This document shows positions 6,918 to 28,665 of a stretch of DNA of 38,158 nucleotides, one piece after another. A program made the position numbers and the translations under genes. Numbering within the stretch: position 1 is the stretch's first letter; each line of letters begins with the position of its first letter. The stretch lies in IMG/VR virus record IMGVR_UViG_3300023112_000043, positions 1 to 38,158 of that record; one strand, 5' to 3'. Origin of the DNA: a virus. The notes below the pieces were generated by a model. It worked only from the letters and a program-made list of their open reading frames with translations. It had not been told where the DNA came from and searched no databases.

Positions 6918-7102
6918 TTTTTGGTCTCCGTGCGAGGTGGCTTGATCGGCAAGCACTTGGGAACGAAGCCGGGGGACAGATGTGTCCGGATGAGGTCCGA
7001 GAAGTGCCCGAACTTCTCAGCGTCTTCGACTTTCTTGCGATCTTCCACCGAGAGACTGTCCAGGAACTCTTGTCTGCGCTCTTCAGAATCTTTGTCGATC
7101 AT
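6914..7102 (-). CDS. Small unknown acidic/basic helical protein
   Basis: It has 62 residues. The ATG at 7102 overlaps the polymerase stop as ATGA. It has a charged helix (RRQEFLDSLSVEDRKKVEDA), a short central segment, and a basic Pro/Lys end (PIKPPRTETKK). It has no membrane segment or enzyme motif, and only one Cys. The tight coupling to DNA polymerase suggests a replication accessory role, but nothing in the sequence proves it. Confidence 0.7.
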   Translation of the reverse strand: MIDKDSEERRQEFLDSLSVEDRKKVEDAEKFGHFSDLIRTHLSPGFVPKCLPIKPPRTETKK

Positions 7103-9504: not shown

Positions 9505-9522
9505 AGATGCCTAAACGCATGA

Positions 9523-9550
9523 GGGGCGGGCCCGAAGATGGACCCGCCCC
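9523..9550 (-). terminator. GC-rich hairpin between the RGG/zinc-protein and polymerase genes
   Basis: GGGGCGGG at 9523-9530 pairs perfectly with CCCGCCCC at 9543-9550 across a 12-base loop. It fills one of the few gaps (9505-9559) in the operon. Read on the minus strand the hairpin is followed by TCATGCGTTTAGG, which has only a short U run, so it may attenuate transcription or mark an RNA end rather than stop fully. It could lower polymerase expression relative to the upstream gene. Confidence 0.55.
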
Positions 9551-9559
9551 GTGTTGAAA

Positions 9560-10684: not shown

Positions 10685-11625
10685 ACTTGCCTCGCTTGAC
10701 TGATATTGATTGGGTTGCCGCACACGTGCACAAGTTCTTCTTCCAGAAGATCATCCGGTTGATGGATGCCGTCGGGAAGCGCCGCCACGTACACGCGCAC
10801 TGCCTGAAGTTTATGGCTCGCTTTGAGCATCCCTCGACGGCCTGCCGGGTCGTTGTCCAGGCAGAGCACCACTCGGGAGCTCATCGCTTCTATCGATCTA
10901 CACTGCGCATCAGACATGCTGCTGCCCATCAGGGCAACCACCGTCGTCAGCCCAGCCTGACAGAACCACAAGGCGGCCTTGAAGCCCTCGACCACGTACA
11001 CGGGCTTCCGCTCGTGGCGAAGCTCCGCAACCACCTTGTCTGCTCTCCAGAGGTACTCCCCTTTGTTCAGGTGAGGTACCTCGATTCCGTACCGGTGCAG
11101 CTCTGTCGTGTACACCTTGTACTTTCCGCCGAACTCTGAATCATGGCGGCGGCCGACAATGCCAACCAGCCGCCCCTTCTTGTCTCTAACCGGGTAGGTC
11201 ACCCGGCTGAGCTCTCTGTCGTATCCCACGTCGTTTTCAAAGAGCACCCGCTCGTCGAACCCCTCTCTCAAGAGGTCTTCCGGGCACCAGTCAAACATCC
11301 CCAAGAGCTTCTCGGGGAGGAACACGGGGCCAGGAGAGCGTGCCTTCTTCTTAGTCCGTGACGTGTCTTTCTGCTGGAATTTCTTCGACAAACGGACAAC
11401 AGTTGTCCGCTCCTCGCCAGCCATCTCGAGGAACTTCCGGAGGTTTCCGCCCCCACACCCACCAAAGCAGTTCCACAGCCCGTTCTCGACGTTGACGGAG
11501 AAGCTCGGGGAGTTTCCTCCGTGGAAGGGGCAGAACCCCTTGTAGTTGGATTCCGAGCTTCTCCGGAGGTTTTCGACATACTTGCCGTAGACCTCCAGGA
11601 AGTCAGGTTCGGAAGGGGTCTGCAC
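10663..11625 (-). CDS. dnaG: DnaG-type DNA primase (zinc finger and Toprim)
   Basis: It has 320 residues from a GTG at 11625 inside the end of the helicase gene. The upstream open frame is only the shadow of the helicase tail. The CHC2 zinc finger is C32, H35, C53, C57 (CPFHGG, then CFGGC). The Toprim fold follows with E213 (VVEGFKAAL) and D257-N-D259 (CLDNDPAG). It makes RNA primers for the lagging strand. It is shorter than bacterial DnaG (about 580 residues) because the C-terminal helicase-binding domain is missing, as in many phage primases. It overlaps the next gene by 22 bases. Confidence 0.94.
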   Translation of the reverse strand: MQTPSEPDFLEVYGKYVENLRRSSESNYKGFCPFHGGNSPSFSVNVENGLWNCFGGCGGGNLRKFLEMAGEERTTVVRLSKKFQQKDTSRTKKKARSPGPVFLPEKLLGMFDWCPEDLLREGFDERVLFENDVGYDRELSRVTYPVRDKKGRLVGIVGRRHDSEFGGKYKVYTTELHRYGIEVPHLNKGEYLWRADKVVAELRHERKPVYVVEGFKAALWFCQAGLTTVVALMGSSMSDAQCRSIEAMSSRVVLCLDNDPAGRRGMLKASHKLQAVRVYVAALPDGIHQPDDLLEEELVHVCGNPINISQARQVWDATSP

Positions 11626-13015
11626 GCTTCTTCGCGGGCTTCTTCTTTGCGGGGTCTGCCTTCGGGGGCCCTCCGGCGCCACGCGCCGCGGCTTCGGATT
11701 CTTCCATCTTTGCCTTCTCCGCAAGGAACTGCTTGATGCTCACCGTGGACTGTTGAACGCTGAAGTCGGATCCTGGGTTGGCGTTGATGACGAAGGGCGG
11801 GATGACGGTCTCTCGAGACTTCGAGAAAACCAGCATGATCGAGGCCCCTCTGCCCGTGGGGTTGGGACCTCGGAAGGCCCGCACAGCGATGTCTGCGTCC
11901 TGTCCGATTCCATCTGCGAAGGACAGGTCGTCGAGGTCTCCAGACGGCTCCTTGGCGTTGGCGCGGTTGGCCTGGGTGGTGCCTACGACCGGGCACTCAC
12001 AGAACTGAGCCATGCCCTTGAGGTCCTGTGAGATGTGCCCGATCTGCTTCCAGTCCGCGCTGCGCTGCCCAGAACGTCCATCCCGCATCAGGTAGAACCC
12101 GTCCACTACGATGAGATCCGGCTGGAACCGCTCAGCAGCAGCGATGAGGTTCTCGACCGTACTGGCCTTCCGCTTGCCCTTGTCGCTCAGAAACAGCAGT
12201 GAGCGAGTACGTCCGCGGGGGTTCGCGTCTTCTTCCTCCGTCTCCGCGAGGATCTCCAGCATGTCGAAGAACTCGTCCCTGTCTTCCGGGGTGAGCGCCC
12301 CTCTCCGGAGCCGGTCGTAGCAGACTCCGGCCAGGATTGAGCTCACACGCTTCAGCATCGCTACTCGAGAGATCTCCTTGGAGAAGATCATCACTCGGTA
12401 GTTGTCCAGGTACGCCTGCGCGGCGATGGCACAGGCCAGCCAGGTCTTCATGTTGCCTGGGCGGCCGTAGATGACGATGAACTCTTCGTCCATCATCCCG
12501 CCCGTCTTCTGGTTCAGGAGCGTCCAGGGGTAGGGGATGCCAATGAGGCCCCCGCCTTCCTCCTGGGTGTTGTACTCCTGGCGCAGAAGATCGACCGAGG
12601 CCGAGAGCAGGATGCCCTCGTCTTCATGCGCCTCTACGTTCATCCTCCGGAACTTCGGCAGGAACCCATCGAGGATGGCCGTGGGGTCCTGTCCGTCTGC
12701 CAGCTCATCCTGTAGGTCATTCAGGAGGACCTGCAGGTCGACCTGCGACTTCTGGGTACGCACCTCACGGATCAACGCCGGGAGAGAGTTCCGAGAGGGG
12801 CTGAAGTCGAAGTCGGGGAACTTCCTCAGGAACCGCTCTACCGACGGCACCTCTCCGCGCTGTTGGGGGTCGTGGTACTCAGACCAGAGCCAGGCGAAGC
12901 CCTCGTGCGCGGCCTCCAGCGCGAACATCTCAGGGGTGACCCCTTTCTTCTTTGGAGTCTGAAAGTCCCCGGTCTCCAGGATGTTGCTGATCAGCTCAAG
13001 CTCTGGGTGCGACAT
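11603..13015 (-). CDS. dnaB: DnaB-like replicative helicase with variant P-loop
   Basis: It has 470 residues, the usual length. It should form a hexamer that unwinds the fork ahead of the polymerase. An N-terminal helical domain (residues 1-130) is followed by the RecA-like motor: P-loop at 184-191 (GRPGNMKT), catalytic Glu214 (FSKEISR), and Walker B at 301-305 (LIVVD). The sixth P-loop residue is Met where most families have Gly. The C-terminus is a disordered Lys/Ala/Pro tail. The ATG at 13015 directly follows the upstream TAG, and the primase gene starts inside the 3' end, so the two are translationally coupled. Confidence 0.95.
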   Translation of the reverse strand: MSHPELELISNILETGDFQTPKKKGVTPEMFALEAAHEGFAWLWSEYHDPQQRGEVPSVERFLRKFPDFDFSPSRNSLPALIREVRTQKSQVDLQVLLNDLQDELADGQDPTAILDGFLPKFRRMNVEAHEDEGILLSASVDLLRQEYNTQEEGGGLIGIPYPWTLLNQKTGGMMDEEFIVIYGRPGNMKTWLACAIAAQAYLDNYRVMIFSKEISRVAMLKRVSSILAGVCYDRLRRGALTPEDRDEFFDMLEILAETEEEDANPRGRTRSLLFLSDKGKRKASTVENLIAAAERFQPDLIVVDGFYLMRDGRSGQRSADWKQIGHISQDLKGMAQFCECPVVGTTQANRANAKEPSGDLDDLSFADGIGQDADIAVRAFRGPNPTGRGASIMLVFSKSRETVIPPFVINANPGSDFSVQQSTVSIKQFLAEKAKMEESEAAARGAGGPPKADPAKKKPAKKRADPFRT

Positions 13016-13300
13016 CTACAGTTCTTCCTCGTTGTGCTGTGGGGTCTCAGGGGGCGCATCCACCAGCCCGAGGTCTTCGTTGATGACTGACTGGATGTCG
13101 CGCACCACCGCAAACAGCCGCGCCACGAGCTCTGCATGCTTCTCGTCCAGCGTCGTCTCCCCTCCCCCGATGGTTCCCTCGAAGGTGGGTGTGGTGAGGT
13201 TGACGACGTAGGCTGCGCGGACTGTGGACTGTCGGACGGAGGCCTCCACCGAGACGAGCTCGATGGAGGTGGTGCTACGAGGTCCGGATGTCACGGTCAA
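13016..13300 (-). CDS. Small unknown protein upstream of the helicase gene
   Basis: It has 94 residues, overlaps the preceding gene by 26 bases and ends directly before the helicase ATG. The N-terminal two thirds are beta-rich (ELVSVEASVRQSTVRAAYVV), followed by a helix (EKHAELVARLFAVVRDIQ) and an acidic tail. No Cys cluster or catalytic motif is seen. The family is not recognised. The next gene upstream in transcription has a similar order of beta strands then helix, so the two might be distant relatives or partners. Confidence 0.72.
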   Translation of the reverse strand: MTVTSGPRSTTSIELVSVEASVRQSTVRAAYVVNLTTPTFEGTIGGGETTLDEKHAELVARLFAVVRDIQSVINEDLGLVDAPPETPQHNEEEL

Positions 13301-13616
13301 GCTCCTTGGCCTGCGACACCGCAGAAGCCAGGCTCTCGGACACCAGCTCCGCCGCGATTACAACCGCAGCCATCACGCCGTCCTCACTCTGGTCACAGGT
13401 CAGGGTGAGGCCGACTGAAACGTCAAAGCCGTTCCCGAAGTCCTTGTCCGAGTAGGACTGCCGGTAGTTGATCTGGGCCTTCTCGTCGCCGAGCAGCGAG
13501 ATGAGCTGGTCGTCTTCCATATTGAGATGCTCCTGGGTGATTGGGACCGAGAAGTCCCGTCTGTCGCTCTTGCCGTTCCTCACTTCTCCGTAGAGCTCGC
13601 CGACGGGCCGGCGCAC
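13275..13616 (-). CDS. Small unknown beta-then-helix protein
   Basis: A GTG at 13616 sharing a G with the upstream TAG gives 113 residues. An ATG at 13520, with AGGAG about nine bases upstream, would give 81. The shared core is a beta region (DVSVGLTLTCDQ) and a long Ala-rich helix (MAAVVIAAELVSESLASAVS). The longer N-terminus contains plausible protein sequence (VGELYGEVRNGKSDRRDFS), so I list the long form. The family is not recognised. It sits in the DNA-replication operon between two other unknowns. Confidence 0.65.
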   Translation of the reverse strand: MRRPVGELYGEVRNGKSDRRDFSVPITQEHLNMEDDQLISLLGDEKAQINYRQSYSDKDFGNGFDVSVGLTLTCDQSEDGVMAAVVIAAELVSESLASAVSQAKELDRDIRTS

Positions 13617-14041
13617 TACTGGAGGGCCTTCGGGATGGTCACGCGAAGCGTGCCCTTCTTCAAGGTGAACATCTGCCCGTAGATGGCGCGGAGCTCGGGG
13701 TTGAGCCGCTCCATCTGCGTGGGATTGACGGTGTACCCGATCACCCCGTACCGGAAGAGCTCGTCCATGTGTCCCCGCTCCTCCGCCTCCTCCACGATGT
13801 CCTCGGAATCGTACACCTTCTTGTCGGAGCCCGACGACACCCGGAACTGGTAGGCTCCGATCTTCGTGCTTCCGGCCCCGCCTTCGCGGAGCTCCTTCTT
13901 CGCCTCGTTCACGAGGGCGGGCCTCTTCGCCTCCAGCTCGCGGAGCATGTCCACGGCATCCGAGTCGGCCAGCTTCAGCCGCTCCCACAGGGCGGAAATC
14001 TCGTCGTTCGTCTCGAGCAGTGCGTCAACAGCGGTAGGCAT
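13616..14041 (-). CDS. Unknown protein with N-terminal coiled coil
   Basis: It has 141 residues. The ATG at 14041 shares its A with the upstream TGA (TGATG). Residues 8-52 are helical and heptad-like, then a small domain (GAYQFRVSSGSDKKVYDSED) and a C-terminal beta hairpin (LKKGTLRVTIPKAL). No enzyme motif is visible. The architecture of a coiled coil plus small domain resembles phage Gam-type DNA-end or nuclease-inhibitor proteins in outline only. The family is unassigned. It is coupled to the uracil-glycosylase-like gene. Confidence 0.72.
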   Translation of the reverse strand: MPTAVDALLETNDEISALWERLKLADSDAVDMLRELEAKRPALVNEAKKELREGGAGSTKIGAYQFRVSSGSDKKVYDSEDIVEEAEERGHMDELFRYGVIGYTVNPTQMERLNPELRAIYGQMFTLKKGTLRVTIPKALQ

Positions 14042-14754
14042 CAGTGGCCTCCAATCAGGGTCTTGTGGTGGCTGATGAGGGACAGCGCAAAGCGCAAATC
14101 CCGGATGGTCTCGTAGGTGTGGCCTCGCCCCTCTTTCACAAGGGGTCCATCTCCCTTGCGCAGGAGGAAGCCAGGGCTCAGTGTAGGCAGCATGGCGTAC
14201 CGCACCGGACGTCCGGTGCTCGGGGAGTCGATGGAGATGTCCATCAGTCCCCCGCGCTTGTCCATGATGGCCACCTTCTTCCCAAGGAGGGTCGTAGCGG
14301 CGACCTTCCCTCCTGCGATGATGAGCAGGGGGTCGATGGCGTAGATGGTCCGATGCAGGCGATTCCTGCACGCCTTCACTTCTTTCGCGCTCGGGGTTCG
14401 ATCGTCTTCAGGGCGGCACATCACCGCGTTGGTGAAGAAGATGTGGCCCTCGAGGTAGTTCCGCAGATTCTCGAAGAAGGCGTCGTTCTCCTCGATCATG
14501 CGTACTTCTTCCAGCTCTGGACTGTCCCACCACGCCTTCTCGAAGAGCTGAAGTAGGAGTCTCCCGGCAGGTCCCACGAATGGGTACCCCGCCTCATCAT
14601 CTTCGATGCCTGGGGCCTCTCCCACGTAGAGGATTCGAGCACTGACGCTGCCAGATCCGAAGACTGGCTGCACTCGACTCTCGCAGAGGAGTTCACAGGC
14701 GTCACATCGAGAATACTCCTCAAGGAGTGCCCTCAACGCAGTACTACCTATCAC
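14041..14754 (-). CDS. Family-4-type uracil-DNA glycosylase-like protein, catalytic His replaced
   Basis: It has 237 residues from a GTG at 14754 with AAGGAG nine bases upstream. Motif 1 is clear at residues 45-64 (GEAPGIEDDEAGYPFVGPAG). Four Cys (C17, C20, C113, C129) match the 4Fe-4S ligands of family 4, including CRPEDDRTPS. Motif 3 is normally H-P, as in THPAALL-type sequences, but reads TLSPGFLLRK, with Ser193 in place of His. Family-4 enzymes remove uracil from DNA. The change might lower activity, shift substrate, or make it a DNA-binding protein. A stretch at 80-105 is longer than in bacterial relatives. Confidence 0.88.
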   Translation of the reverse strand: MIGSTALRALLEEYSRCDACELLCESRVQPVFGSGSVSARILYVGEAPGIEDDEAGYPFVGPAGRLLLQLFEKAWWDSPELEEVRMIEENDAFFENLRNYLEGHIFFTNAVMCRPEDDRTPSAKEVKACRNRLHRTIYAIDPLLIIAGGKVAATTLLGKKVAIMDKRGGLMDISIDSPSTGRPVRYAMLPTLSPGFLLRKGDGPLVKEGRGHTYETIRDLRFALSLISHHKTLIGGH

Positions 14755-14766
14755 GATATTTTCTCC

Positions 14767-16146
14767 TTATGGTAGGTCTTCCCATCTCCACTTCCTTATG
14801 ACTCGGTAGCCCTTTTCTCGGGATTTGCGGATCAGGGAGTGGATCATTCCCCGGAACGTGTCCACCGAGGAATCGAGTAGCAGGAAGACAAGAGGGTTCG
14901 GCTTTCCGTCGAGGGCACGCAGTACCCGGCCCACACTCTGCTCGTAGGCGATGGCAGAGTGAGACCTGGCAGCGAACGGGGTCATCAGGACCAGGGTGTC
15001 CAGGTCTTTCCGGTTGTACGCCGCGGCCCCCACCCCGAGAGAGGCGAAGACCAAGTCGGAGCCGTTGAGGCGTTCCAGGCGCTCCTTCGACTTCGTCTTC
15101 CCGTGGATCACTGTGCTCCCGGGGTTCTGGGCGTGCAGGTGCTCCAGGTGGTCGGGGCCATGGGAGAGGGCGTAGACGATCCGTCCGCGCTTCTTGAGCT
15201 CATCCAAGAGCCGTTGGATGAGGGAGTTGCGGTCTTCGTTCTGCGCCAGAACCTTGTGGGCGCGGCCCACATTGAACTTCCCATTCCGATCCAGCATCCC
15301 CTTTCGCTCGTCCTCCCGGAAAAACACTCCCATGTCGAGCACGTAGACCGTGGGGTCGAGGTCCTGCTCCACGTTGGAGTGGAAGATGGGCCCCAGGTTG
15401 GTCAGGAAGATGCCCTCGCACCGGTCAGTCCGCACTGGCGTGGCGCTCAGCCCCAGACGCATCCCAGCCCCCACGGCGCACGCCTGGGAGAAGAAATCCG
15501 CGCCCATGATGTGGCACTCATCGTAGATCACCAGTCCGAACTTCCTGTAGAAGTCCGCAGGGAGTCTCCCGGTCTGCGCCCTGCGCGCCAGCATGTTCAC
15601 TGTCGAAAGACAGATCCCAGCTTCGTAGTCGAACTTCTTCCCCTGGATCCAGCCAGTCTCCCCTCGGTAGTCGAAGAACTCGTCGAGCTCTCCCAACCAG
15701 TTGTCCAGGTGCGCCCTCTGGGGGCTCACCACCAGAGTGGACACCTTCTCATGGGCGGCCTTGTTCCACGCCAAGACGGTCTTGCCCAGGCCACACGCCA
15801 GATTCAGGACGCCTGAGTGCGCTGCCTTCAGGTCCTCCCATGCCTCTACTTGGTTGTCGCGTAGTTGGAATGCCGGCTTGGCGGTGAGGTCGATGCTGTC
15901 GAACTCAGTGGGCCGCAGATCTACCACCTCGCAGCCAAGCTCCTCAACCTGCTTGTCCGTCAGGGTGTACAGCGGGACCTGGTAGTGGAACTTGTGAGTC
16001 CGCATGAGGGCGCGGCGCTGCTCTTCCGGGTCGGCCCCGAAGGTCAGAAGACCTTCGAGGATCCCAGAAGACACCGCAGACCGGGGCAGGAACAGGTGCC
16101 TGCCCCGGTATACGACGCCCGCCTCGAGGTGAGGCAGTCTTGTCAC
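14767..16146 (-). CDS. SF2 DNA helicase, UvsW/XPB-like
   Basis: It has 459 residues. The GTG start at 16146 overlaps the upstream stop as GTGA. Motifs are the Q-region at 93-104, Walker A at 117-123 (ACGLGKT), DECH at 209-212 (IYDECHIMG), motif III SAT at 234-236, motif V region (DLVFASLGVG) and motif VI QSVGRVLR. This is the order of the RAD25/UvsW group, which remodels branched and reversed forks. It is the second gene of the operon and thus likely among the first made. A role in recombination-dependent replication with the RecA-like protein is inferred. Confidence 0.93.
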   Translation of the reverse strand: MTRLPHLEAGVVYRGRHLFLPRSAVSSGILEGLLTFGADPEEQRRALMRTHKFHYQVPLYTLTDKQVEELGCEVVDLRPTEFDSIDLTAKPAFQLRDNQVEAWEDLKAAHSGVLNLACGLGKTVLAWNKAAHEKVSTLVVSPQRAHLDNWLGELDEFFDYRGETGWIQGKKFDYEAGICLSTVNMLARRAQTGRLPADFYRKFGLVIYDECHIMGADFFSQACAVGAGMRLGLSATPVRTDRCEGIFLTNLGPIFHSNVEQDLDPTVYVLDMGVFFREDERKGMLDRNGKFNVGRAHKVLAQNEDRNSLIQRLLDELKKRGRIVYALSHGPDHLEHLHAQNPGSTVIHGKTKSKERLERLNGSDLVFASLGVGAAAYNRKDLDTLVLMTPFAARSHSAIAYEQSVGRVLRALDGKPNPLVFLLLDSSVDTFRGMIHSLIRKSREKGYRVIRKWRWEDLP

Positions 16147-19444: not shown

Positions 19445-21508
19445 ATGTCGGTCTCAGGCGAGCTCAGTCGGTTCAATCCGCGTCGCGCCAGTGTGGACGG
19501 GAGCCGTGGATTCGGTATCCAATACCCGTCCCCCTTCTTCGACATCGCGCAGCAGTTCCTCCCGACGAACCAGCACCAGCTGCACAAGTGGTGTCGGTAC
19601 TACTTCCTCACGAATCCGGTCATCAACGCCGCCTGCTCCAAGATGGCCGAGTACCCGGTCACCCCTCTGGTGTTCGAGACAGAGGACCCGGAGCTCCAGA
19701 AGCTCGGACGCAAGGTCGAGGGGCAGCTCAAGCTGCGCTCGTTCCAGGTCGAGGTGGGCCTGGACTACTTCGTGTACGGCAACGCCTTCGTCTCGGTGTT
19801 CCTGCCGTTCGAGAAGTACCTCATCTGCTCGAGCTGCAAGGCCCGGTACCGGGCGAAGACGAACCGCTTCCGCTACACCTGGCGCAACTCCCGTTTCTAC
19901 CTCAAGAAGTGCAAGTGTGGGCACGTCGGCTACGCCAAGCAGCACGACGTCTACATGCGGAGCTTCCGGCAGATCAAACTGGTCCGCTGGAACCCCGAGA
20001 ACATCACGATCAAGCACAACGAGATCACAGGGGAGACGAAGTACTTCTTCAAGCTCCCCCGTGCGGTGCTCAATGACATCAAGCTGGGGGACAAGGACAC
20101 CATCGAGACGCTGCCCATCGAGTTCCTCGAGGCGGCGCGGCGTCGGAAGTCTCTGCTCTTCTCGAAGGACAACCTGTACCACCTGAAGCGTCCGACCATC
20201 GCGCAGAAGGACCAGGGGTGGGGAACCCCCCTGATCTACCCGCTGCTGAAGGATGCGTACTACCTGCAGGTGATGAAGAAGGCGAACGAGGCAGTCCTCC
20301 AGGAGAGCATCGTCCCCCTCCGCATTCTCTTCCCGGGCCAGAGCACGGGAGGTAACGAGGGGCCGTACGGCGCGTACAACCTGACGAACTGGAAGAAGCG
20401 TGTTGATGAAGAGATCAACATGTGGAAGCGGGACCACAACTACATCCCTGTCCTTCCGGTGAACGTCGGCTTCCAGCAGATCGGCGGCCAGGGGCGCTCC
20501 CTCCTGCTCTACCAGGAGATGCGACTCCTCGCGGAGCAGATGCTGGCCGGTGCCGGCATCCCCGTAGAGTTCATCTTCGGCGGCCTCCAGTGGAGTGGGT
20601 CGAGTACCTCTCTCCGTGCCCTGGAGAACATGTTCCTGGGCTTCAACATGCAGCGGCATGAGCTCGTGAATGAGTTCATCCTCGGGAAGATCTTCTCCTT
20701 CATGGACTGGCCGAAGGTCCCTGCGCGGTTCGACAAGTTCCGCATGGCCGACGATCTCCAGAGGAGCATGTTCTACCTGCAGCTCAACCAGGCACAGAAG
20801 ATCAGCAACCGCCGGCTCATGGAGGAGGTCGGAGAGAACTTCGACCTCGAGACCGAGCGCATGGAAGACGAGATCGCGACGCAGCTCCAGGCCAACCGCA
20901 AGATGCAGGTGGCTTCTGCCGACATCCAGGGCGAAGCCCAGCTGCGTGGATCCCGCTACCAGACCAAGGCCCAGGAGCTCCAGATGCGCTCCCAGGCCAA
21001 GGTACAGATGGAGATGCAGCAGGAGCAGATGCAGGCTCAGGCGGCCATGCAGGGCGGAGCTCCGGGGCAGCCTCCCCCACAGCAGCCCGCGCAGCCTCCA
21101 CAGCAGCCTTCACAGCAGCCTCAGCAGGGCGGAGATCAGGCCCAGCAGACTGCAGGTCTCCCAGAAGGGGCCACGGCGTACGACGAGAACGCACAGAACC
21201 CCAACGCCACGGGCATGCCGGCAGCGATGGCGGGAATGCAGTCACAGGTACAGCCCGGTGGAGGAGGCGTAGACCTCCGGTACATCGCGCAGCGAGCCGC
21301 GGCATTCCTGCGCACCGTGAAGGCTGAGCAGGGTGAGGAGGCGATGTTCCAGTCTCTTGCGCAGATGCAGACCTCCAACCCCGCGCTCTACCAGCTGGTA
21401 GTCCAGCTAATGAATGAGACGGGGTCGAAGCAGGATCCGACAAACGCGATGTCGAATCCTGCTCCGAATGGAACTCCGCAGGCCAGTGCGGGACGCCAGG
21501 TCGGCTAA
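19445..21508 (+). CDS. Portal protein with a zinc-ribbon insertion and Gln/Pro-rich tail
   Basis: It has 687 residues. Portals form the dodecameric ring at the capsid vertex through which DNA enters and leaves. Evidence is the pattern of a long mixed domain (KWCRYYFLTNPVINAACSKM, then VGLDYFVYGNAFVSVFLPFE), a long helix region around QVMKKANEAVLQESIVPLRI, and the typical EQMLAGAGIPVEFIFGG stretch, plus size. Residues 128-158 hold C-x2-C and C-x-C (CSSC, CKCG), a zinc-binding insert. After residue 500 the protein becomes Gln/Met/Pro-rich and probably disordered, with a final helical segment near 600-660. No terminase or major capsid gene is in the window. Confidence 0.83.
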   Translation: MSVSGELSRFNPRRASVDGSRGFGIQYPSPFFDIAQQFLPTNQHQLHKWCRYYFLTNPVINAACSKMAEYPVTPLVFETEDPELQKLGRKVEGQLKLRSFQVEVGLDYFVYGNAFVSVFLPFEKYLICSSCKARYRAKTNRFRYTWRNSRFYLKKCKCGHVGYAKQHDVYMRSFRQIKLVRWNPENITIKHNEITGETKYFFKLPRAVLNDIKLGDKDTIETLPIEFLEAARRRKSLLFSKDNLYHLKRPTIAQKDQGWGTPLIYPLLKDAYYLQVMKKANEAVLQESIVPLRILFPGQSTGGNEGPYGAYNLTNWKKRVDEEINMWKRDHNYIPVLPVNVGFQQIGGQGRSLLLYQEMRLLAEQMLAGAGIPVEFIFGGLQWSGSSTSLRALENMFLGFNMQRHELVNEFILGKIFSFMDWPKVPARFDKFRMADDLQRSMFYLQLNQAQKISNRRLMEEVGENFDLETERMEDEIATQLQANRKMQVASADIQGEAQLRGSRYQTKAQELQMRSQAKVQMEMQQEQMQAQAAMQGGAPGQPPPQQPAQPPQQPSQQPQQGGDQAQQTAGLPEGATAYDENAQNPNATGMPAAMAGMQSQVQPGGGGVDLRYIAQRAAAFLRTVKAEQGEEAMFQSLAQMQTSNPALYQLVVQLMNETGSKQDPTNAMSNPAPNGTPQASAGRQVG

Positions 21509-21768
21509 TCCCACTGCGGTGGGTTGATCGCCCACTTGCGAGGCTTTGAGATCTGGATTCCTTCCAGCAGAGCCCCCAAGATCTTGGGGGCATGTTCCAC
21601 GAAGCACGCCTCATGGAACATGACTTCGTGATCTCCCGTAGTGAACGTCTCTACTTCTGCGGTCCACCGCACGGCCCGTCGGAAAATCCGGTGTCGGGAG
21701 AGACAGAGGGCGGCCTCCCGCCGCACAATGTGAGCTCCGCAGTACTCACAGTAGTAGCTGGGGGTCAC
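21505..21768 (-). CDS. Small zinc protein, convergent with the portal gene
   Basis: It has 87 residues from the GTG at 21768, which overlaps the upstream stop as GTGA. It has CEYCGAH near the start, then a Cys and His pairs (CLSRHR; MFHEACFVEH) that could complete one zinc site. Its TAG (21507-21505) overlaps the portal's TAA on the other strand, so the two genes share bases at their ends. It is the last gene of a minus-strand island inside the virion region. The function is unknown. Confidence 0.72.
   Translation of the reverse strand: MTPSYYCEYCGAHIVRREAALCLSRHRIFRRAVRWTAEVETFTTGDHEVMFHEACFVEHAPKILGALLEGIQISKPRKWAINPPQWD
21573..21622. promoter_or_regulatory. Two adjacent inverted repeats just after the portal gene
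   Basis: Positions 21573-21590 are an 18-base perfect dyad (CCCCCAAGATCTTGGGGG). Immediately after it, CATGTTCCA at 21591-21599 pairs with TGGAACATG at 21614-21622 across 14 bases. Both lie inside the small minus-strand gene but also 65-115 bases downstream of the portal stop, so on plus-strand RNA they could form tandem hairpins that protect, process or terminate the transcript. There is no U-run. Confidence 0.45.
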
Positions 21769-22094
21769 GGCATCACCGCCAGCAGGAAACTCGAGTAGTC
21801 TCCGCAGCCAGCACATTCTCCTGCGCCCCAAAAGGGGAGAGCCGGTAGGGCCCCCGCGCAGGCAGAGCACAACCACAGGGCATCGGGTACTTCCTCCTTC
21901 AACTCTGGGCAGCCCTTGCAGTCCATGTCCCCACAGCGTCCCTCTACGATCGGGCAGTATGCTGCGAGGATGTCCTCTTCTGCGGTTCGAGGGGCTATAG
22001 AAATCTCGGGAGGACGGAGAGAAAGCCCCTCGAGGCCGGCATCACGCCGACCTCGAAGGACACTCTCCCGGGGCCTCCTACCCATCCTGGGCAT
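21765..22094 (-). CDS. Small protein with two Cys clusters
   Basis: It has 109 residues from the ATG at 22094; a second ATG nine bases inside is also possible. The N-terminus is basic (MGRRPRESVLRGRRDAG). The centre has CPIVEGRCGDMDCKGCPEL and later CSACAG and CAGCGDY, enough for two metal sites. It overlaps the small gene upstream (22078-22185) and is coupled to the next by GTGA. The family is not recognised. Confidence 0.72.
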   Translation of the reverse strand: MPRMGRRPRESVLRGRRDAGLEGLSLRPPEISIAPRTAEEDILAAYCPIVEGRCGDMDCKGCPELKEEVPDALWLCSACAGALPALPFWGAGECAGCGDYSSFLLAVMP

Positions 22095-22185: not shown

Positions 22186-22186
22186 C

Positions 22187-22270: not shown

Positions 22271-22283
22271 GTGCTGCTCCAGC

Positions 22284-22311
22284 GTCGGCGCTACTTGCCG
22301 ACTGTTATACT
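22284..22311. promoter_or_regulatory. Divergent control region of the RNA polymerase gene: inverted repeat plus -10-like element
   Basis: GTCGGC at 22284-22289 pairs with GCCGAC at 22297-22302 around a 7-base loop. Directly after it, TATACT at 22306-22311 resembles a -10 element for the plus strand, 27 bases before the GTG at 22339. On the minus strand the same AT-rich patch reads TATAAC. The 68-base gap (22271-22338) thus serves both the minus-strand island and the polymerase gene. No -35 consensus is seen. Confidence 0.45.
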
Positions 22312-22338
22312 TATGGCCTCGATCTGTGGAGTATTTAG

Positions 22339-25300
22339 GTGTCCAATCTGAACCCTGAAGCAGCCCACCGCTCCCTGGTCCAGAAGACCAAAGAGGCGAT
22401 CTCCTCTCACTTTCCGATTGAGGGCAGGAAGCACCGCCTGGAGCTCCTCTCTCTCGTCATTGAGGAAGGGCCGAAGTTCAGTTCGGCCAACTACGAGTCC
22501 CAGGCGGGCGCGCGACTGACGGGGAAGACCTGGGGACCGGACATCAAGGCGAAGTTCCGCCTGGTGGACATCGAGACCAAGAAGGTTCTGGACGAGAAGA
22601 CCCGGACGATCGGCACTCTGCCCAAGATCACCACTCGGTACAGCTACATCGTAGCAGGCAGCGAGCGGCAGTTCGATGGGGTGTTTCGGCTGAACCCCGG
22701 TGCCTACCACGCAGAGGCCAGCAACGGCGACCTCCTCGCGAAGTGGAATGTCGCTGCTGGGTCAAAGATCGGGTCCTTCAAGATCTTCATCGAGCGGAAG
22801 GACCCGAAGAAGGTCGGGCGCATGCACCTGATCGTGAAGAGCGGGGATGCGTCCACCGTGAAGATCGCGATCTACCCGGTGCTCAAGGCCATGGGCATCA
22901 GCGATGAGCAGATGAAGTCCAAGTTCGGAGAGAAGATCTTCGAGGCCAACAGGGCTGCGGCAAAGCCCGGAACCCTGCAGCGGTTCCACAAGGCGATCGA
23001 GAACCGGAAGAAGTCTCAGGACTACAAGCCCCCGCCCCCAGCAGAGGCTGCCCAGTTCGCCAAGCAGGTGTTTGAGGGAGCCGAAGTCAGCGCCGACACG
23101 ATGCAGTCCGCGCTGGGCAAGAAGTTCGAGAAGATCTCCGGGGAGGCCCTGCTCCTCTCCGCGGCGAAGCTGGTGGGGATCAGCAAGGGTCGCGTGAAGG
23201 AGGACGATCGACAGTCCCTCTCGAACAAGCGCCTCTTCGGGGCCGAGGATTTCATCCACGAGCATCTGACGAAGGGCGCCAACATCTACTCGTTGCAGCG
23301 GAAGATTCGCAACAACGTCGATCGCCGCGATCGCATCTCGGAGATCATCCCCGCACCTGGCGTGGGGTACGGCGCGGCCATCCTGTCGAAGTTCAAGGCG
23401 GGACAGCTCCCCACCCAGACGAACCCCCTGCAGTTCGTCTCGAACCACACGAAGACCACGATCCTCGGAGCGGAGTTCGGCGGCATCAAGGGCGACAACG
23501 TCAACATGATGCAGGACAAGCTGATCAACCCGAGTCACCTCGGGCTCCTCGATCCGCTTCAGACCCCTGAGAACTCCGCCACTGGCGTAGTCCTCCATGT
23601 ACCTCTCGGCGCCAAGAAGAAGGGCCACCGGCTGATGGCGCAGGTCATCAACGTGAAGACCCGTCGGGTCGAAGAGAAGAGCGCCGCCGAGCTCGAGAAC
23701 GCGGTGGTCGCTTACCCAGACCAGGTCAAGGTCACGAAGAAGGCCGACGGCACGTACAGCCTGAAGCCTCGGTTCTCGAATGTCGTTGTCTACGACGACG
23801 AGCGCAACACCTCCAAGCGCCCATGGAATCAGGTCCAGTACGTGCTCCCCTCGGCTCGGAACCTCTTCGCGATCAGCGCCAACCTGGTGCCGTTCATCCA
23901 GAACGACAACGGCAACCGTGCGATGATGGCCGCCAAGCACCAGGAGCAGGCCGTGGGGCTCCAGAAGCGGGAGGCCCCACTGGTACAGTCAGTCCAGAAG
24001 GGGAAGGCCTCCTACGAGCGCCTGGTGGGCGCCATGGCCGCTATCACAGCGGTCACGGATGGGACGGTCTCCTCTGTCTCCAAGAAGGCCATCGTGGTGA
24101 AGGGCCCGGACGGCAAGGCCTCGAAGTACCCCCTGTACGATCACTACCCGCTGAACGGCGCGAAGCACATGATGCACTCCACCCCTCTGGTAGAGGTGGG
24201 GGACAAGGTCAAGCGCGGCCAGGTCATCGCGGACTCCAACTTCACCCACAAGGGCACCCTGGCCCTGGGTACCAACCTGCGTGTGGCCTACATCCCGTAC
24301 AAGGGCCTGAACTTCGAGGATGGCATCGTCATCTCGGAGAGTGCCGCGTCCAGCCTGGTGTCCAGTCACCTGCACAGCGTCGAAGTCGAGATGACGCCGA
24401 ACGTGGTGGTGAACCGGAAGCTGTGGCGGCAGTACGCTGGGGCGATCAAGGCCACTCCTGAGGCGCTTCGGAAGCTGGATGAGAATGGCGTGATCAAGAA
24501 GGGGACCCGGGTTCAGCCCGGAGATGTCCTGATCGCGAAGCTGCGCAAGCAGGACAACACCAAGGAGACCCAGGTAGTCAAGGCCGCGCTGAAGAAGGCG
24601 ATCCGGGACTACGTCGATGCCGCTGAGATCTGGGATCACGAGTACGGCGGCACAGTCGTTCGCGTGGTGAACACCGGGAAGAAGCTGGCGGTCTACGTCC
24701 GGACTGAGCAGACGATGGAGATCGGGGACAAGCTCTCAGGTCGACATGGCAACAAGGGCATCGTCACCAAGATCCTCCCCGATGACCAGATGCCGCGGGA
24801 CAAGAGCGGGAAGCACGTCGAGGTTCTCCACAGCCCGGCGGGCATCCCCTCACGCATGAACGTCGGACAGGTCCTCGAGACCGCAGCGGGCAAGATCGCG
24901 AAGAAGACGGGCAAGCCCTTCCTGGTTGAGAACTTCGACCCGGACAAGGACTACAGCCAGTTCGTGAAGGACGAGCTCAAGAAGCACAAGCTCTCGGACA
25001 CCGAAGAGCTCTTCGATCCGGAGACGGGGGAGAGCCTCGGTCAGATCTTCACGGGGTTCCAGTACACGCTGAAGCTGGACCATCAGGCGGAGAAGAAGGT
25101 CACGGCTCGCGCTGGTGGATTCGGGTACAAGTACCGTCCCACTGGGGAGGCAGCTCAGGGCTCTGGCGTCGGGCAGGGAGGCCAGCGCATTGGTGGCCTG
25201 GATCTGTACTCCATGCTGGCTCACGGAGCTGTACACAACCTTCGGGAGATGCAGACCTACAAGTCTGACCGAGAGCAGGCCGAGGATGTGTGGCTGCGGA

Positions 25301-28300
25301 TCATGCGGGGAGAGCGCCCGCCGCCCCCGAAGGTCCCCCGCTCCATGGTCCACTTCCAGCACTACCTCCGTGCGATGGGGGTGAGTACATCCGAGAAGGG
25401 TGGAAAGTACAGCCTCATGCCCATGACGGATGCCCAGGCCGTTGCCCAGAGCAGTGGTCAGCTCACCCTCCCAGAGAAGACGCTCGCGGCCAAGGGCTCG
25501 CTGACTCGAGAGGAGCGGGGCGGCCTCTTTGACCGCGGCAAGACCGGAGGGCTTGACGGCCGGAAGTGGAGTCACATGGACCTGGGCATGCGCGTGCCCA
25601 ACCCGGTCTTCGAAGAGCCTGTCCGGCTGCTGCTCCGGATGAAGAAGCCCGAGTTCCGGAAGCTCCTGTCCGAGTCCGGTGCGCAGGGTCGCAAGTCCGG
25701 CTTCACGATCATCGAGGAGAAGCTCCGCGCGTTGAACGTGGACACTGAGCTCAAGAAGAGCGAGAAGTCCCTGACGGATGCGAAGAAGGGCAAGCTCAAC
25801 GTGGAGTACAAGCGTGTTCGCTATCTCCGCGCCCTGAAGAAGCTGAAGCTGAAGCCGATCGACGCGTACACCAACCGTGTGATCCCGGTGCTTCCTCCGC
25901 AGCTCCGGAAGGTGAGCATCGGCTTTGACGGCACGCAGATCATCGACCCCGTCAACCAGATGTACGCCATCACCGGGTCTATGGTGAGGCAGCTCAAGAA
26001 CGCGGAGAAGGAGCGTCTGCCGGTGGGGGACATCCAGAAGCTCCAGGCGGAGATCTACACGACCGTCAAGGCGCTGCGCACAACCGGGATGACGCTCGAG
26101 GGCAAGCAGCTCCCGAGTCTGATGGACAAGCTTTCGGGGGCGAGCAGCCAGCCGAAATATTCGTTCTTCCAGACGGGCGTACTCGGCAAGCGTCAGGATC
26201 TCTCTGGTCGCTCTGTGATCACACCAGATCCAGACCTCCCGCTGGATGAGGTCGGGGTCCCCCGCTCCATGGCCATGGAGATGTACAAGCCGTTCGTCAT
26301 CCGGGAGCTCTGGCGCCGCATGGGGCGCGCGCGTACTCCACGAGAGGCGCGGGAGATGATCAAGAAGAACCACCCCGCCGCCAACGAGGCGCTGGCCCGC
26401 GTGGTGAAGGACCGTCCCGCGATCATGAAGCGGGACCCCGCCCTTCACATGTTCTCGATGATGGCCTTCCGCCCGAAGATCGTAGAGGGCCGCTCCATCA
26501 AGATCCATCCCCTGGTCGTCGGAGGCTTCAACGCTGACTTCGATGGGGACACCATGGCCATGTACGTCCCGATCTCAGACAAGGCGGTGGAAGAGGCGAA
26601 GGGCATGCTCCCCTCGAAGAATCTCTTCTCGCCCACTTCTGGCAACCTGATGGTCGCCCCGAGCCAAGATGGCGTCCTGGGGATCTACCAGGCGACCCGC
26701 TGGGGGAAGAAGAAGTCCGGATCCTTCACGCAGGAGGAGGCCCTCAAACTCATGAAGCAGGGCAAGCTGAAGTCCTACGATGTGATCTCAGTCAAGGGGA
26801 TGACGAAGCCCACCACCCCGGGCCGCCTGGCGCTGAACAAGACGCTCCCCGCGGAGTTCAAGGGAGATGCCGAGCTCCTGCATGACCCCAGCTTCCGCAT
26901 GGCCAAGGGGAAGATGAAGGGTCTCGCTACGCGGGTCGCTCGAGCGCACCCAGGTGAGTTCGCCTCGATGATCGATCAGTGGAAGACGCTGGGGCACAAT
27001 CTGGCCTACAAGAACGGGTCGAGCGTCAGCCTCAACGACTTCCATGACGGCTTCAAGCTCCGAGATGAGCGCCTCAAGAAGTACCAGGTGAAGGAGCGGG
27101 AGATCCGCAAGGGCTCCGGCAGCCAGAAGGAGAAGGACCAGAAGATCGTCAACCTGTACCGCAAGGCGCAGACAGAGCTCCGTGAGGTCGGCACCGCTCG
27201 GTACAACCGCACGGACAGCAACCGCATGTGGGACTGGGCGCAGAGCGGGGCGAAGGGCAACTGGAACCAGTTCGGCCAGCTCGTGATGGGCCCGATCTTG
27301 GTCCAAGATCCGATGAACAAGGAGGTCCCGTTCCCGATCGTGAAGTCGTTCGGAGAAGGCCTCCCCATCTCCCAGTATTGGGCATCCCTGCATGGAGCGC
27401 GGAAGGGAACCATCGACCGCGCGAGCGCGACGGCGAAGCCTGGCGCGCTCACCAAGGAGCTTATCAACACGGTCATCGACCAGACGATCAAGTCGGAAGA
27501 CTGTGGCACCACGAAGGGCACCCTCCTCCCCGTGACGGATGCAGATGTTGGCGGCCGCTACCTGGCTGCTGATGTCCCCCTGAAGGGCGGCGATTCCCTC
27601 AAGAAGGGCACGCTCATCACTGAGCCCCTCCGCACGCGCCTCAAGAACTCGGGCCCCAAGAAGGTGCTGGTCCGGTCTCCCCTGGCCTGCAAGGAAGTGA
27701 AGGGGATCTGCGCCACCTGCTACGGGCTGAGCGAGCGCGGGAAGAACTACAAGGTCGGCACCAACGTCGGGGTCATCGCGGGGCACGCCCTCGGAGAGCC
27801 CATCACCCAGATGCAGATGCGGACGTTCCACACAGGTGGTGTGGGCGGTGCGGGAGATGTCGGAGACTACTTCACCGCGGCGGAAGACCTCCTCAAGGTC
27901 CCGAAGAAGCTGCGCGGTGAGGCGACGCTGGCGACCGTGTCGGGCCGCGTAGAGAAGATCATGAGCGACGCCCTGGGTGGAAAGATCGTGACGATCACTG
28001 GGAAGCAGCACACGGTCCCGCACACCAACCAGCTCCTCCCCAAGATTCGGGTAGGCGCGGAAGTGAAGAAGGCGGAGGCCCTCTCCACAGGCAGGAAGAA
28101 CCCGAACCACATCCTCGAGATCACAAAGAGCATGGGTGCGGTTCGGAACCACCTGACGGAGAACCTGAACAGCCTCTACGTGGAGACCACAGGGAACGAG
28201 CGGAGGCGCAACATCGAGACGGTGATCCGGGCGATGACCGATCTCACCAAGGTGAACAACCCCGGTGACGCCCCCAACATCCTGCGCGGGCAGATGCTCC

Positions 28301-28665
28301 CTCTGAGTGAGGTCGAGAACCTGAACAAAGACCTGCGCCGGGCAGGCAGGAAGGAGATCACCCACAGCCCCACGCTCAAGCCCCTCAACCAGGCTCCGCT
28401 GGCAGGGTCAGAGGACTGGATGGCGCGGCTCAACTTCCAGCGGCTGAAGGAGACGTACGTGGAAGGAGGGGCCCAGAACTGGGTCTCTGACATCCACGGC
28501 CACCCCATCCCCGGAGCTGCCCACGGTGCTTCCTTCGGGCTCACTCCGCCGTCCCCCGCTACAATGCCCAAGTCGGCCCCCAAGCCACTTCCTGTCTCGC
28601 GGCCTGCGCCCCAAAAGAAGGCCCCGGCCTCGCCACCCTCCAGGTTCTCATTCTTCGGGAAATGA
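22339..28665 (+). CDS. rpoBC: Single-chain DNA-dependent RNA polymerase: fused beta and beta' subunits
   Basis: It has 2108 residues from a GTG with GGAG seven bases upstream. Beta part (about 1-1010): LPKITTRYSYIVAGSER near 95, LLDPLQTPENSATG near 405, RVAYIPYKGLNFEDG near 655, K798 and K806 in GDKLSGRHGNKG (the catalytic-site lysines), and GGQRIGGLDLYSMLAHGAVH near 950. Beta' part (about 1055-2060): LGKRQDLSGRSVI, NADFDGD with D1400, D1402 and D1404 chelating Mg, GARKGTIDRASATAKPG, zinc ligands C1722, C1784, C1791, C1794, and trigger-loop M1827, R1828, H1831 (MRTFHTGG). The N-terminal beta' zinc domain is absent; its place holds FDRGKTGGLDGRKWSHMDL. The tail is Pro/Ala-rich. It should transcribe phage genes. 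No alpha, omega or sigma gene is seen. Confidence 0.97.
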   Translation: MSNLNPEAAHRSLVQKTKEAISSHFPIEGRKHRLELLSLVIEEGPKFSSANYESQAGARLTGKTWGPDIKAKFRLVDIETKKVLDEKTRTIGTLPKITTRYSYIVAGSERQFDGVFRLNPGAYHAEASNGDLLAKWNVAAGSKIGSFKIFIERKDPKKVGRMHLIVKSGDASTVKIAIYPVLKAMGISDEQMKSKFGEKIFEANRAAAKPGTLQRFHKAIENRKKSQDYKPPPPAEAAQFAKQVFEGAEVSADTMQSALGKKFEKISGEALLLSAAKLVGISKGRVKEDDRQSLSNKRLFGAEDFIHEHLTKGANIYSLQRKIRNNVDRRDRISEIIPAPGVGYGAAILSKFKAGQLPTQTNPLQFVSNHTKTTILGAEFGGIKGDNVNMMQDKLINPSHLGLLDPLQTPENSATGVVLHVPLGAKKKGHRLMAQVINVKTRRVEEKSAAELENAVVAYPDQVKVTKKADGTYSLKPRFSNVVVYDDERNTSKRPWNQVQYVLPSARNLFAISANLVPFIQNDNGNRAMMAAKHQEQAVGLQKREAPLVQSVQKGKASYERLVGAMAAITAVTDGTVSSVSKKAIVVKGPDGKASKYPLYDHYPLNGAKHMMHSTPLVEVGDKVKRGQVIADSNFTHKGTLALGTNLRVAYIPYKGLNFEDGIVISESAASSLVSSHLHSVEVEMTPNVVVNRKLWRQYAGAIKATPEALRKLDENGVIKKGTRVQPGDVLIAKLRKQDNTKETQVVKAALKKAIRDYVDAAEIWDHEYGGTVVRVVNTGKKLAVYVRTEQTMEIGDKLSGRHGNKGIVTKILPDDQMPRDKSGKHVEVLHSPAGIPSRMNVGQVLETAAGKIAKKTGKPFLVENFDPDKDYSQFVKDELKKHKLSDTEELFDPETGESLGQIFTGFQYTLKLDHQAEKKVTARAGGFGYKYRPTGEAAQGSGVGQGGQRIGGLDLYSMLAHGAVHNLREMQTYKSDREQAEDVWLRIMRGERPPPPKVPRSMVHFQHYLRAMGVSTSEKGGKYSLMPMTDAQAVAQSSGQLTLPEKTLAAKGSLTREERGGLFDRGKTGGLDGRKWSHMDLGMRVPNPVFEEPVRLLLRMKKPEFRKLLSESGAQGRKSGFTIIEEKLRALNVDTELKKSEKSLTDAKKGKLNVEYKRVRYLRALKKLKLKPIDAYTNRVIPVLPPQLRKVSIGFDGTQIIDPVNQMYAITGSMVRQLKNAEKERLPVGDIQKLQAEIYTTVKALRTTGMTLEGKQLPSLMDKLSGASSQPKYSFFQTGVLGKRQDLSGRSVITPDPDLPLDEVGVPRSMAMEMYKPFVIRELWRRMGRARTPREAREMIKKNHPAANEALARVVKDRPAIMKRDPALHMFSMMAFRPKIVEGRSIKIHPLVVGGFNADFDGDTMAMYVPISDKAVEEAKGMLPSKNLFSPTSGNLMVAPSQDGVLGIYQATRWGKKKSGSFTQEEALKLMKQGKLKSYDVISVKGMTKPTTPGRLALNKTLPAEFKGDAELLHDPSFRMAKGKMKGLATRVARAHPGEFASMIDQWKTLGHNLAYKNGSSVSLNDFHDGFKLRDERLKKYQVKEREIRKGSGSQKEKDQKIVNLYRKAQTELREVGTARYNRTDSNRMWDWAQSGAKGNWNQFGQLVMGPILVQDPMNKEVPFPIVKSFGEGLPISQYWASLHGARKGTIDRASATAKPGALTKELINTVIDQTIKSEDCGTTKGTLLPVTDADVGGRYLAADVPLKGGDSLKKGTLITEPLRTRLKNSGPKKVLVRSPLACKEVKGICATCYGLSERGKNYKVGTNVGVIAGHALGEPITQMQMRTFHTGGVGGAGDVGDYFTAAEDLLKVPKKLRGEATLATVSGRVEKIMSDALGGKIVTITGKQHTVPHTNQLLPKIRVGAEVKKAEALSTGRKNPNHILEITKSMGAVRNHLTENLNSLYVETTGNERRRNIETVIRAMTDLTKVNNPGDAPNILRGQMLPLSEVENLNKDLRRAGRKEITHSPTLKPLNQAPLAGSEDWMARLNFQRLKETYVEGGAQNWVSDIHGHPIPGAAHGASFGLTPPSPATMPKSAPKPLPVSRPAPQKKAPASPPSRFSFFGK

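Follow-up and report, generated by a model that had tools for sequence, protein, structure and literature searches.

The gene at positions 22339–28665 of the window (IMG/VR virus record IMGVR_UViG_3300023112_000043, 38,158 bases, analysed over its whole length) encodes the full catalytic core of a bacterial-type RNA polymerase (RNAP) in one polypeptide, called P0001 below, with canonical motifs of both the beta and the beta' subunit. It belongs to a large family of mostly uncultured phages that have such a one-chain RNAP core. The fusion is one part of a system – the family also has a sigma factor gene, a class of promoter motif biased towards the strand opposite to the RNAP gene, and a conserved place for the RNAP gene near that of the portal protein – in which sigma factor, RNAP and promoter would form a pair and its target. 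The best explanation, and one in which we have reasonable confidence, is that the single chain is a virion RNAP that depends on sigma and switches on the block of genes on the opposite strand. Phages of this family probably supply the cell with transcription machinery of their own and do not rely only on that of the host.

The original prediction of one 2108-residue frame with beta and beta' motifs in the right order was confirmed by a check of the frame and by the hidden Markov model search that had been proposed with it. The Pfam domains Rpb1 and Rpb2 matched P0001 in the correct order, beta and then beta' (Rpb2_6 3e-63, Rpb1_2 7e-32, Rpb1_5 5e-23, Rpb1_3 1e-9), and the closest solved relatives are bacterial beta' chains, with a best E-value of 2.8e-114. 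P0001 was aligned on Salmonella RpoB and RpoC, and residues are cited in what we take to be the E. coli numbering (features are listed in Table 1). In this map the beta lysines K1065 and K1073 correspond to K798 and K806; beta' R425 corresponds to R1365, the aspartates D460, D462 and D464 to D1400, D1402 and D1404, and M932, R933 and H936 to M1827, R1828 and H1831. The cysteines of the second zinc site, C814, C888, C895 and C898, are found as C1722, C1784, C1791 and C1794. Every catalytic residue listed for mapping is kept in P0001, and the catalytic columns are invariant in alignments of the family. The two lysines and NADFDGD (1398–1404) lie exactly where they had been placed from the sequence, while MRTFHTGG, which is present as claimed, is at residues 1827–1834 and not at 1825–1833.

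The description of the core as complete holds for its catalytic parts and fails elsewhere. The first beta' zinc site (C70, C72, C85 and C88) has no counterpart in the map of P0001 on Salmonella RpoC, and in the alignments the beta lobe is missing some of its parts. Besides the N-terminus, the biggest losses relative to Salmonella beta are of 117, 112 and 54 residues, part of which we take to be lineage-specific inserts of Salmonella; relative to B. subtilis beta, the losses are of 55 and 31 residues. No linker is recognisable in P0001 between the C-terminal end of beta and the start of beta'. With 1342 residues for E. coli beta, a length we assume, and the 1407 of Salmonella beta', the two cellular chains come to 2749 residues against 2108, in agreement with the predicted difference of about 640. 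Three positions that we take to be classic rifampicin contacts are altered in P0001: D516 to T359, H526 to N369, and S531 to T374.

An AlphaFold2 model of residues 500–1695, a stretch that contains both catalytic barrels, was made with 67 relatives and had a mean predicted local distance difference test score (pLDDT) of 89.2 and a predicted template modelling score (pTM) of 0.80. Using VIA-align, the beta half of the model (1 to about 540) was superposed on bacterial beta with Z of 34–37 and a root-mean-square deviation (rmsd) of 2.0–3.9 over 286–510 residues among the 50 matches listed. Foldseek also aligned the model to bacterial beta' chains, over approximately 757–868 columns. The presence of both barrels in one confident model of this stretch is in line with one predicted active centre.

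The fusion is not a singleton. A scan of IMG/VR with P0001 itself gave 11 loci on 11 contigs from 11 metagenome identifiers, each with one frame; two are identical to P0001 and nine have 70–72% identity. In a second scan with an alignment, all 80 loci had one open frame over the beta-beta' joint, at 35–100% identity (76 complete frames, and 4 cut by contig ends); these are the best 80 of at least 510 relatives among at least 600 pattern matches. A third scan, which used distant members, yielded 79 loci that overlap the earlier sets, all in one frame except L206, in which the chain breaks near residue 1910. Since the best matches were kept, the scans are biased towards fused forms and are no measure of the frequency of split ones. 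An assembly error joining two genes, raised in the original prediction, is ruled out, as the joint lies in a single frame at 11 of 11 and 80 of 80 loci, and the fused form is that of every locus in the 80-locus scan.

Other sources of such a gene were considered and rejected. For a bacterial origin or a prophage, a scan of genome contigs gave one match of 31%, on a 12.6-kb contig of a metagenome-assembled genome (MAG). Relatives on plasmids came to 68 records, all below 60% identity, and the annotated ones are mostly ordinary rpoB and rpoC. Two records deposited as phages, Enterococcus Efs 1-1-1 and Staphylococcus SA 1306 Kay (OR846602 and OR844998; L138 and L139), carry one frame the size of beta and another the size of beta', and appear to be contigs of host chromosomes. 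As a side observation, the MAG contig with the 31% match (L098, binned in a Chloroflexales MAG) encodes a relative of the beta part, and is perhaps a misbinned phage contig or a hint of the host.

In some members of the family the RNAP chain is interrupted by intein-like inserts of about 350–510 amino acids, one of them truncated where its contig ends. They occupy three sites: after TPE (P0001 411), inside NADFDGD (around 1403) and within the trigger loop (around 1828). All six inserts that were scanned have LAGLIDADG domains, and three of the six have an intein splicing domain. Inteins usually sit in catalytic motifs of essential enzymes. The position of these inserts in catalytic motifs, together with the retention of all mapped catalytic residues and the invariant catalytic columns, argues against the reading of P0001 as a former RNAP that is now inactive or has a purely structural role in the virion. 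That reading could draw on the gene's place near the portal gene and on the top spectrum count of its relative in virions of phage Arash, but we give it a negligible chance.

The nearest named full-length phage relatives are Salmonella phage Arash and Vibrio phages D69, D148 and D181, at 29–30% identity. In Arash and D69 the joint is fused and the chain is cut at P0001 1486–1489, about 82 residues past NADFDGD, so that beta and the N-terminal half of beta' make one protein and the C-terminal half of beta' another. The Arash pieces are annotated as ordinary beta subunits, and those of D69 as hypothetical proteins. With Arash gp206 as query, 27 loci were found (L228–L254). Eight have the two-piece layout of Arash with both pieces in view, and ten have a further break at Arash 1109–1148 (P0001 ~1120), about 100 residues into beta'; four (L241, L245, L246 and L248) end at P0001 ~1120 with no next piece in view. 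Of the others, L238 has one more break, within beta; in L229 only the first piece is in view; and three are truncated by contig ends. In none of the 27 does a break fall at the beta-beta' joint itself (P0001 1020–1030, Arash 1014–1024).

A tree of 49 rows (LG+G4, quick search, with archaea, eukaryotes, crAss gp66 and YonO left out, and with an unsafe long row for Cobetia Carin-5) set 8 bacteria apart by a branch with support of 100. The 38 fused rows and the Arash and D69 rows were held together with support of 99. Because support for the fused rows alone was just 71, the broken forms may be either sister to the fused ones or nested in them; either way, the beta-beta' fusion is common to all 40 of these rows.

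No alpha subunit (PF01193) was found in any of 25 records, while the positive control was matched in 13 of 14 genomes. A sigma factor is present in the family, although Pfam hardly detects it: Sigma70_r2 matched in Arash and D69 and had no match in G001 and G003 (two records of the family), sigma region 2 was above cut-off in 2 of 19 further records, and region 4 gave only weak lines in the window's clade. The frames under these weak matches make up one family, of which Arash gp10 is a member. An alignment of five of them found the family in 24 of 29 records, a count in which five of the positive records supplied the alignment and in which two pairs, G001/G002 and G013/G023, look like near copies. 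When the sigma profile was compared with the PDB, all 60 chains listed carried sigma names, with a best E-value of 6.7e-17. This protein of about 270 amino acids is, on the basis of these profiles, a divergent sigma factor with regions 2, 3 and 4. The window's phage is covered by the longer record G001 (131 kb), in which both window ends are present and which has the sigma gene outside the window. A second sigma gene is found in Arash (gp196) and in D69 (VPHD69_0246).

Sigma gene and fused RNAP occur together. Scans with single sigmas or a close alignment found 13 contigs, 10 of them already known to have a fused RNAP, which is also present in the remaining 3 of 3; the query sigmas came from RNAP-bearing contigs, and kinship explains part of this co-occurrence. 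Some observations on the sigma factor speak against its proposed pairing with the single chain. The five-member alignment did not find it in 5 of the 29 records (G000, G005, G007, G011 and G019); these are the window and four records of 67, 76, 113 and 171 kb. Its predicted structure was poor (pTM 0.41), and superpositions gave TM scores of 0.13–0.36 and rmsd of 17–31 among the matches listed; those matches are sigma or sigma-containing entries, and the model is too loose for superposition. Of the sigma contacts on the beta' coiled coil, R275, E295 and A302 are M, L and T in P0001, in a region that aligns poorly.

These changed contacts could be taken to mean that the phage sigma serves the host RNAP, that the motif described below is a promoter of host RNAP under phage sigma, and that the single chain works free of sigma, as do the jumbo-phage RNAPs, which lack a sigma in the published accounts as far as available. 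We consider this improbable: the fused RNAP is present in 13 of 13 contigs found by way of the sigma factor, the virions of Arash contain both its RNAP and its sigma, with a similar number of spectra per residue, and the poor alignment of the coiled-coil region makes the residue test a weak one.

A promoter-like motif was found upstream of genes called with a simple codon-usage script, by scoring upstream words against 40 sets of dinucleotide shuffles. The motif is bipartite, AAA(A/T) – about 15 nt – G[G/T][C/T]ATAA, and clearly exceeds shuffles in three of the seven genomes tried. The top 7-mer of G001 was GGCATAA (12 of 65 upstream regions, z 15.8, shuffled maximum 7.6); all 17 copies in the 131 kb are on the minus strand and intergenic or at an edge (16 by the first gene calls). 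G003 and Arash gave the related words GTCATAA (12 of 83, z 13.7, shuffled maximum 6.3) and GGTATAA (22 of 98, z 18.3, shuffled maximum 7.2) independently, and the best 8-mer of D69 was GTTATAAG (12 versus 0.3). Alignment of sites of the window's clade places AAA(A/T) 15–18 nt upstream and a T followed by A/G at +13/+14 from the motif start. The motif resembles what we take to be the TAAA – N15 – GCCGATAA class of FliA-type sigma factors.

With a position weight matrix (PWM), hits above 12 bits numbered 28 in G001, 39 in G003, 38 in Arash and 28 in D69, where shuffles would give 0.17, 0.33, 1.0 and 0.33; sites that built a matrix match it by construction. Nearly all are intergenic (27 of 28, 34 of 39, 33 of 38 and 26 of 28, respectively). 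The strands of these intergenic hits are mostly opposite to the RNAP gene: 27 minus in G001, 32 minus and 1 plus in Arash and 26 minus in D69, in all of which RNAP is on the plus strand, and 29 plus and 5 minus in G003, where it is on the minus strand. In 18 records outside the motif building, AAA-N15-GKYATAA had 51 matches versus 13 for a reversed control, and by our own count 42 of the 51 are on the strand opposite to RNAP. At a threshold of 11 bits, the window itself has one site of this promoter class, between the portal and RNAP genes. The structural strand has another word, TAAAATA, in 7 of 21 upstream regions in Arash (0.3 expected) and 13 of 22 in D69 (1.3 expected); no clear late-strand motif was found in G001.

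Not all of the promoter evidence points the same way, and several results count against a phage-specific promoter class that opens the opposite strand. The best 7-mer of D69 is a T run, CCTTTTT, and the promoter word stands out there only as an 8-mer. In G006 and G009 the motif or its reverse complement is at or near the top and not above the largest shuffled z, and the best 7-mer of G013 is the ribosome-binding-like AAGGAGG (its best 8-mer is GGTATAAG). Three of the 18 held-out records have no AAA-N15-GKYATAA match. Genes on the opposite strand own most of the upstream regions (45 of 65 in G001, 49 of 83 in G003, 77 of 98 in Arash and 77 of 99 in D69), and part of the strand bias is therefore expected. 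Finally, sigma70-like sites, scored with up to three mismatches, are mildly above shuffles in Arash (25 of 98; mean 13.9, maximum 21) and G003 (11 of 83; mean 5.3, maximum 9), and host RNAP may therefore read some genes; these sites are not above shuffles in G001 (3 of 65) or D69 (28 of 99).

The RNAP gene has a conserved neighbour. In 70 of 82 loci, a set that includes a few near-identical contigs, a portal match is encoded upstream on the strand of the RNAP gene, at a distance of 0.2–5.5 kb. Of the 12 misses, nine have less than 3 kb upstream and three (L054, L065 and L073) have more than 5 kb. The portal PHROG was matched by 8 of 12 members of this portal family at E ≤0.1, with a best value of 9e-8; the window's member has 0.048.

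Published mass spectrometry of Arash virions gives evidence on where the enzyme is found. The beta-beta'N protein gp206 ranks first, with 128 unique peptides and 3516 spectra, and gp216 (beta'C) has 40 and 1210, sigma gp10 has 24 and 467, the helicase gp217 has 38 and 1148, and the portal protein gp204 has 32 and 877; capsid protein gp226 has 1333 spectra. Per residue, this amounts to 2.3 spectra for gp206, 2.0 for gp216, 2.0 for gp10, 2.4 for gp217, 1.5 for gp204 and 4.3 for gp226, so that both RNAP pieces and the sigma factor are found at similar levels. The virion table does not list gp196, the second Arash sigma, as would fit a factor made after infection. A side observation concerns gp217: its gene directly follows that of the beta' C piece (26088–27506 in L014), and with RNAP-like peptide counts in the virion its product is a possible transcription partner.

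The same proteome holds points against packaging of the enzyme. The 116 Arash virion proteins include non-structural enzymes: ligase, primase and glycosylase have 2–3 unique peptides each, and at 1.38 (ligase), 1.15 (glycosylase) and 0.97 (primase) spectra per residue they are within about 2.4-fold of RNAP. Ribonucleotide reductase gp27 (11 unique peptides) and RNA ligase gp143 (14) are better covered, and carry-over or packaging of other enzymes is therefore possible; the Arash authors themselves offer either early transcription or carry-over of abundant proteins. The virion data are also from Arash only, which is about 30% identical and has its chain in two pieces, and would extend to the window's phage by analogy.

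A phage-owned, sigma-dependent RNAP could instead be made after infection and read middle and late genes only, with host RNAP reading the early ones and the Arash virion signal due to carry-over. The sigma70-like sites of Arash and G003, the non-structural virion proteins and the place of the gene near the portal gene, usually a late block, would all suit such an enzyme. We nonetheless think it rather unlikely, since RNAP, gp10 and gp217 have peptide numbers like those of portal and capsid in the Arash data, in contrast to the 2–3 of ligase, primase and glycosylase, and since the promoter class is mainly on the opposite strand, that of the replication genes. If the enzyme is encoded late but needed for the opposite block, delivery in the virion would be the simplest arrangement.

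As a sigma-dependent virion RNAP, the enzyme would work as follows. The beta-beta' fusion would take over the task of the alpha dimer in keeping both parts together, with no alpha encoded; unlike the jumbo-phage enzymes, the chain would work with a phage sigma of the gp10 family. This pair would read AAA(A/T) – about 15 nt – G[GT][CT]ATAA, with initiation likely at the T then A/G 13–14 nt past the motif start. RNAP, encoded near the portal gene, would be made late, and if the window's phage behaves like Arash the holoenzyme would be packaged in the virion, ejected with the DNA, and start the early and middle genes of the opposite strand. A stronger form of this proposal, on which we are evenly divided, is a self-contained system in which the packaged holoenzyme carries an early sigma and, once ejected, acts on phage-only promoters, with host RNAP not needed for the start of infection. 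To judge from an incomplete literature search, no virion RNAP is known so far to work with a sigma factor, and this would be the first; the cut in Arash and D69 would show a route from the fused chain to the split layout of jumbo phages. The same incomplete search, on fused phage RNAPs and on phage sigmas with a virion RNAP, gave no study of this system other than the mReC paper discussed next.

Among published groups, mReC comes closest (Weinheimer and Aylward 2020, PMC7481178); it is described as metagenomic tailed phages with an RNAP that matches bacterial beta and beta' models, keeps NADxDGD, is among the phage hallmark genes and forms a clade apart from bacteria. Here, too, there is an RNAP clade separate from bacteria, with beta and beta' matches (to Pfam and not COG models), NADxDGD and a portal gene nearby. 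The mReC terminase PF03237 was matched in 14 of 25 records at E ≤0.01, with 3 above the cut-off; the capsid marker PF07068 was matched in none of the 25, and no control genome matched it either. The window's family likely belongs to mReC. The text of that paper, as far as available, speaks of beta and beta' subunits and has "fused" and "fusion" in one place each, in both cases about crAss; the words "sigma", "alpha" and "virion" are absent, and neither a fusion of its own RNAP nor promoters are mentioned. Arash and D69 share with the window's phage the portal gene upstream, the same sigma family and the same kind of promoter.

The gp66 protein of crAss-like phage phi14:2 is, reportedly, a virion RNAP that has both catalytic barrels in a single chain. 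It differs in sharing features with QDE-1, and the mReC authors failed to detect it with models of beta and beta' (PMC7481178); P0001, unlike gp66, matches bacterial beta' chains with the E-value given above. The phiKZ and AR9 enzymes also have no alpha, occur in virion and non-virion forms and have a beta' broken after the barrel, a split described for jumbo phages as resembling that of cyanobacteria (PMC7598289); in the sources as available, their beta and beta' are each several chains and there is no sigma, in contrast to one chain and a sigma here. The contrast drawn in the original prediction with the split phiKZ-type enzymes and with gp66 agrees with these accounts as far as available. 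Phage P23-45 has two single-chain barrel RNAPs, gp96 and gp64, one of them in the virion, and promoter motifs of its own; gp64 has very low similarity to known RNAPs, in gp96 the RNAP is fused to the tail tape measure, and a phage sigma is not mentioned in the text seen.

According to the jumbo-phage review (PMC7598289), it is not known what keeps beta and beta' together in phage RNAPs that have no alpha, and a fused chain is one natural answer. One family here links single-chain, two-piece and three-piece phage RNAPs. Beta-beta' fusions are found in cells as well – rpoBC of Helicobacter and Wolbachia – where the enzyme is full size and works with alpha and a host sigma. A one-chain enzyme with a canonical active site and its own sigma and promoter would be a minimal sigma-dependent polymerase for work on mechanism and for synthetic biology, and the independence of such phages from host transcription becomes testable in the cultured relatives Arash and D69.

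Table 1. Features of the window and of related records (positions are those of the window unless another record is named)
Feature	Position	Strand	Evidence or remark
Single-chain RNAP, beta fused to beta'	22339..28665	+	one open frame, GTG start, 2108 aa
Beta part, ~residues 1–1020, boundary approximate	22339..25398	+	alignment with bacterial RpoB/RpoC
Beta' part, ~residues 1021–2108, without N-terminal zinc site, boundary approximate	25399..28662	+	alignment with bacterial RpoB/RpoC
E660/D661, equivalents of beta E813/D814	24316..24321	+	residue map
GDKLSGRHGNKG, beta catalytic lysines K798 and K806	24724..24759	+	translation and residue map
NADFDGD, catalytic magnesium loop, residues 1398–1404	26530..26550	+	translation and residue map
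Presumed bridge helix equivalent (name and E. coli limits as we assume them), ~residues 1677–1712, ends approximate	27367..27474	+	R780 to R1688, T790 to T1698
Second zinc site span, C1722, C1784, C1791, C1794	27502..27720	+	residue map
MRTFHTGG, which we take to be the trigger loop, residues 1827–1834	27817..27840	+	translation and residue map
Portal protein, 687 aa, next large gene upstream of RNAP	19445..21508	+	30–31% to Arash gp204 (annotated portal) and the D69 counterpart
Promoter-like site, AAAT – 15 nt – GCCATAA, pointing away from RNAP gene	22300..22339	-	PWM 18.9 bits at 22317
Conserved frame, 109 aa, downstream of the 22317 site	21765..22094	-	missed by simple gene caller
Replication/repair block	4300..16146	-	
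RecA-like	4300–5490	-	
DNA polymerase A	7099–9504	-	
DnaG-like primase	10663–11724	-	
DnaB helicase	11603–13015	-	
Uracil-DNA glycosylase	14041–14754	-	
Superfamily 2 (SF2) helicase	14767–16146	-	
Sigma gene of the window's phage, outside the window	G001 54128–54931		in long plus-strand gene run, products up to 2243 aa
Intein-like inserts	L030 9198–10256; L078 12276–13754 and 15024–16121; L170, L188, L189, L195, L198, L164		
D69 and Arash loci	L013, L014		records OZ195729, OQ632216

Two minor features concern the neighbourhood of the RNAP gene. Between the portal and RNAP genes (21508–22339), the promoter-like site and the conserved frame may together mark a small gene that runs against the structural block. 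In the portal family C128, C131 and C158 are invariant and C155 is near-invariant, a possible zinc site.

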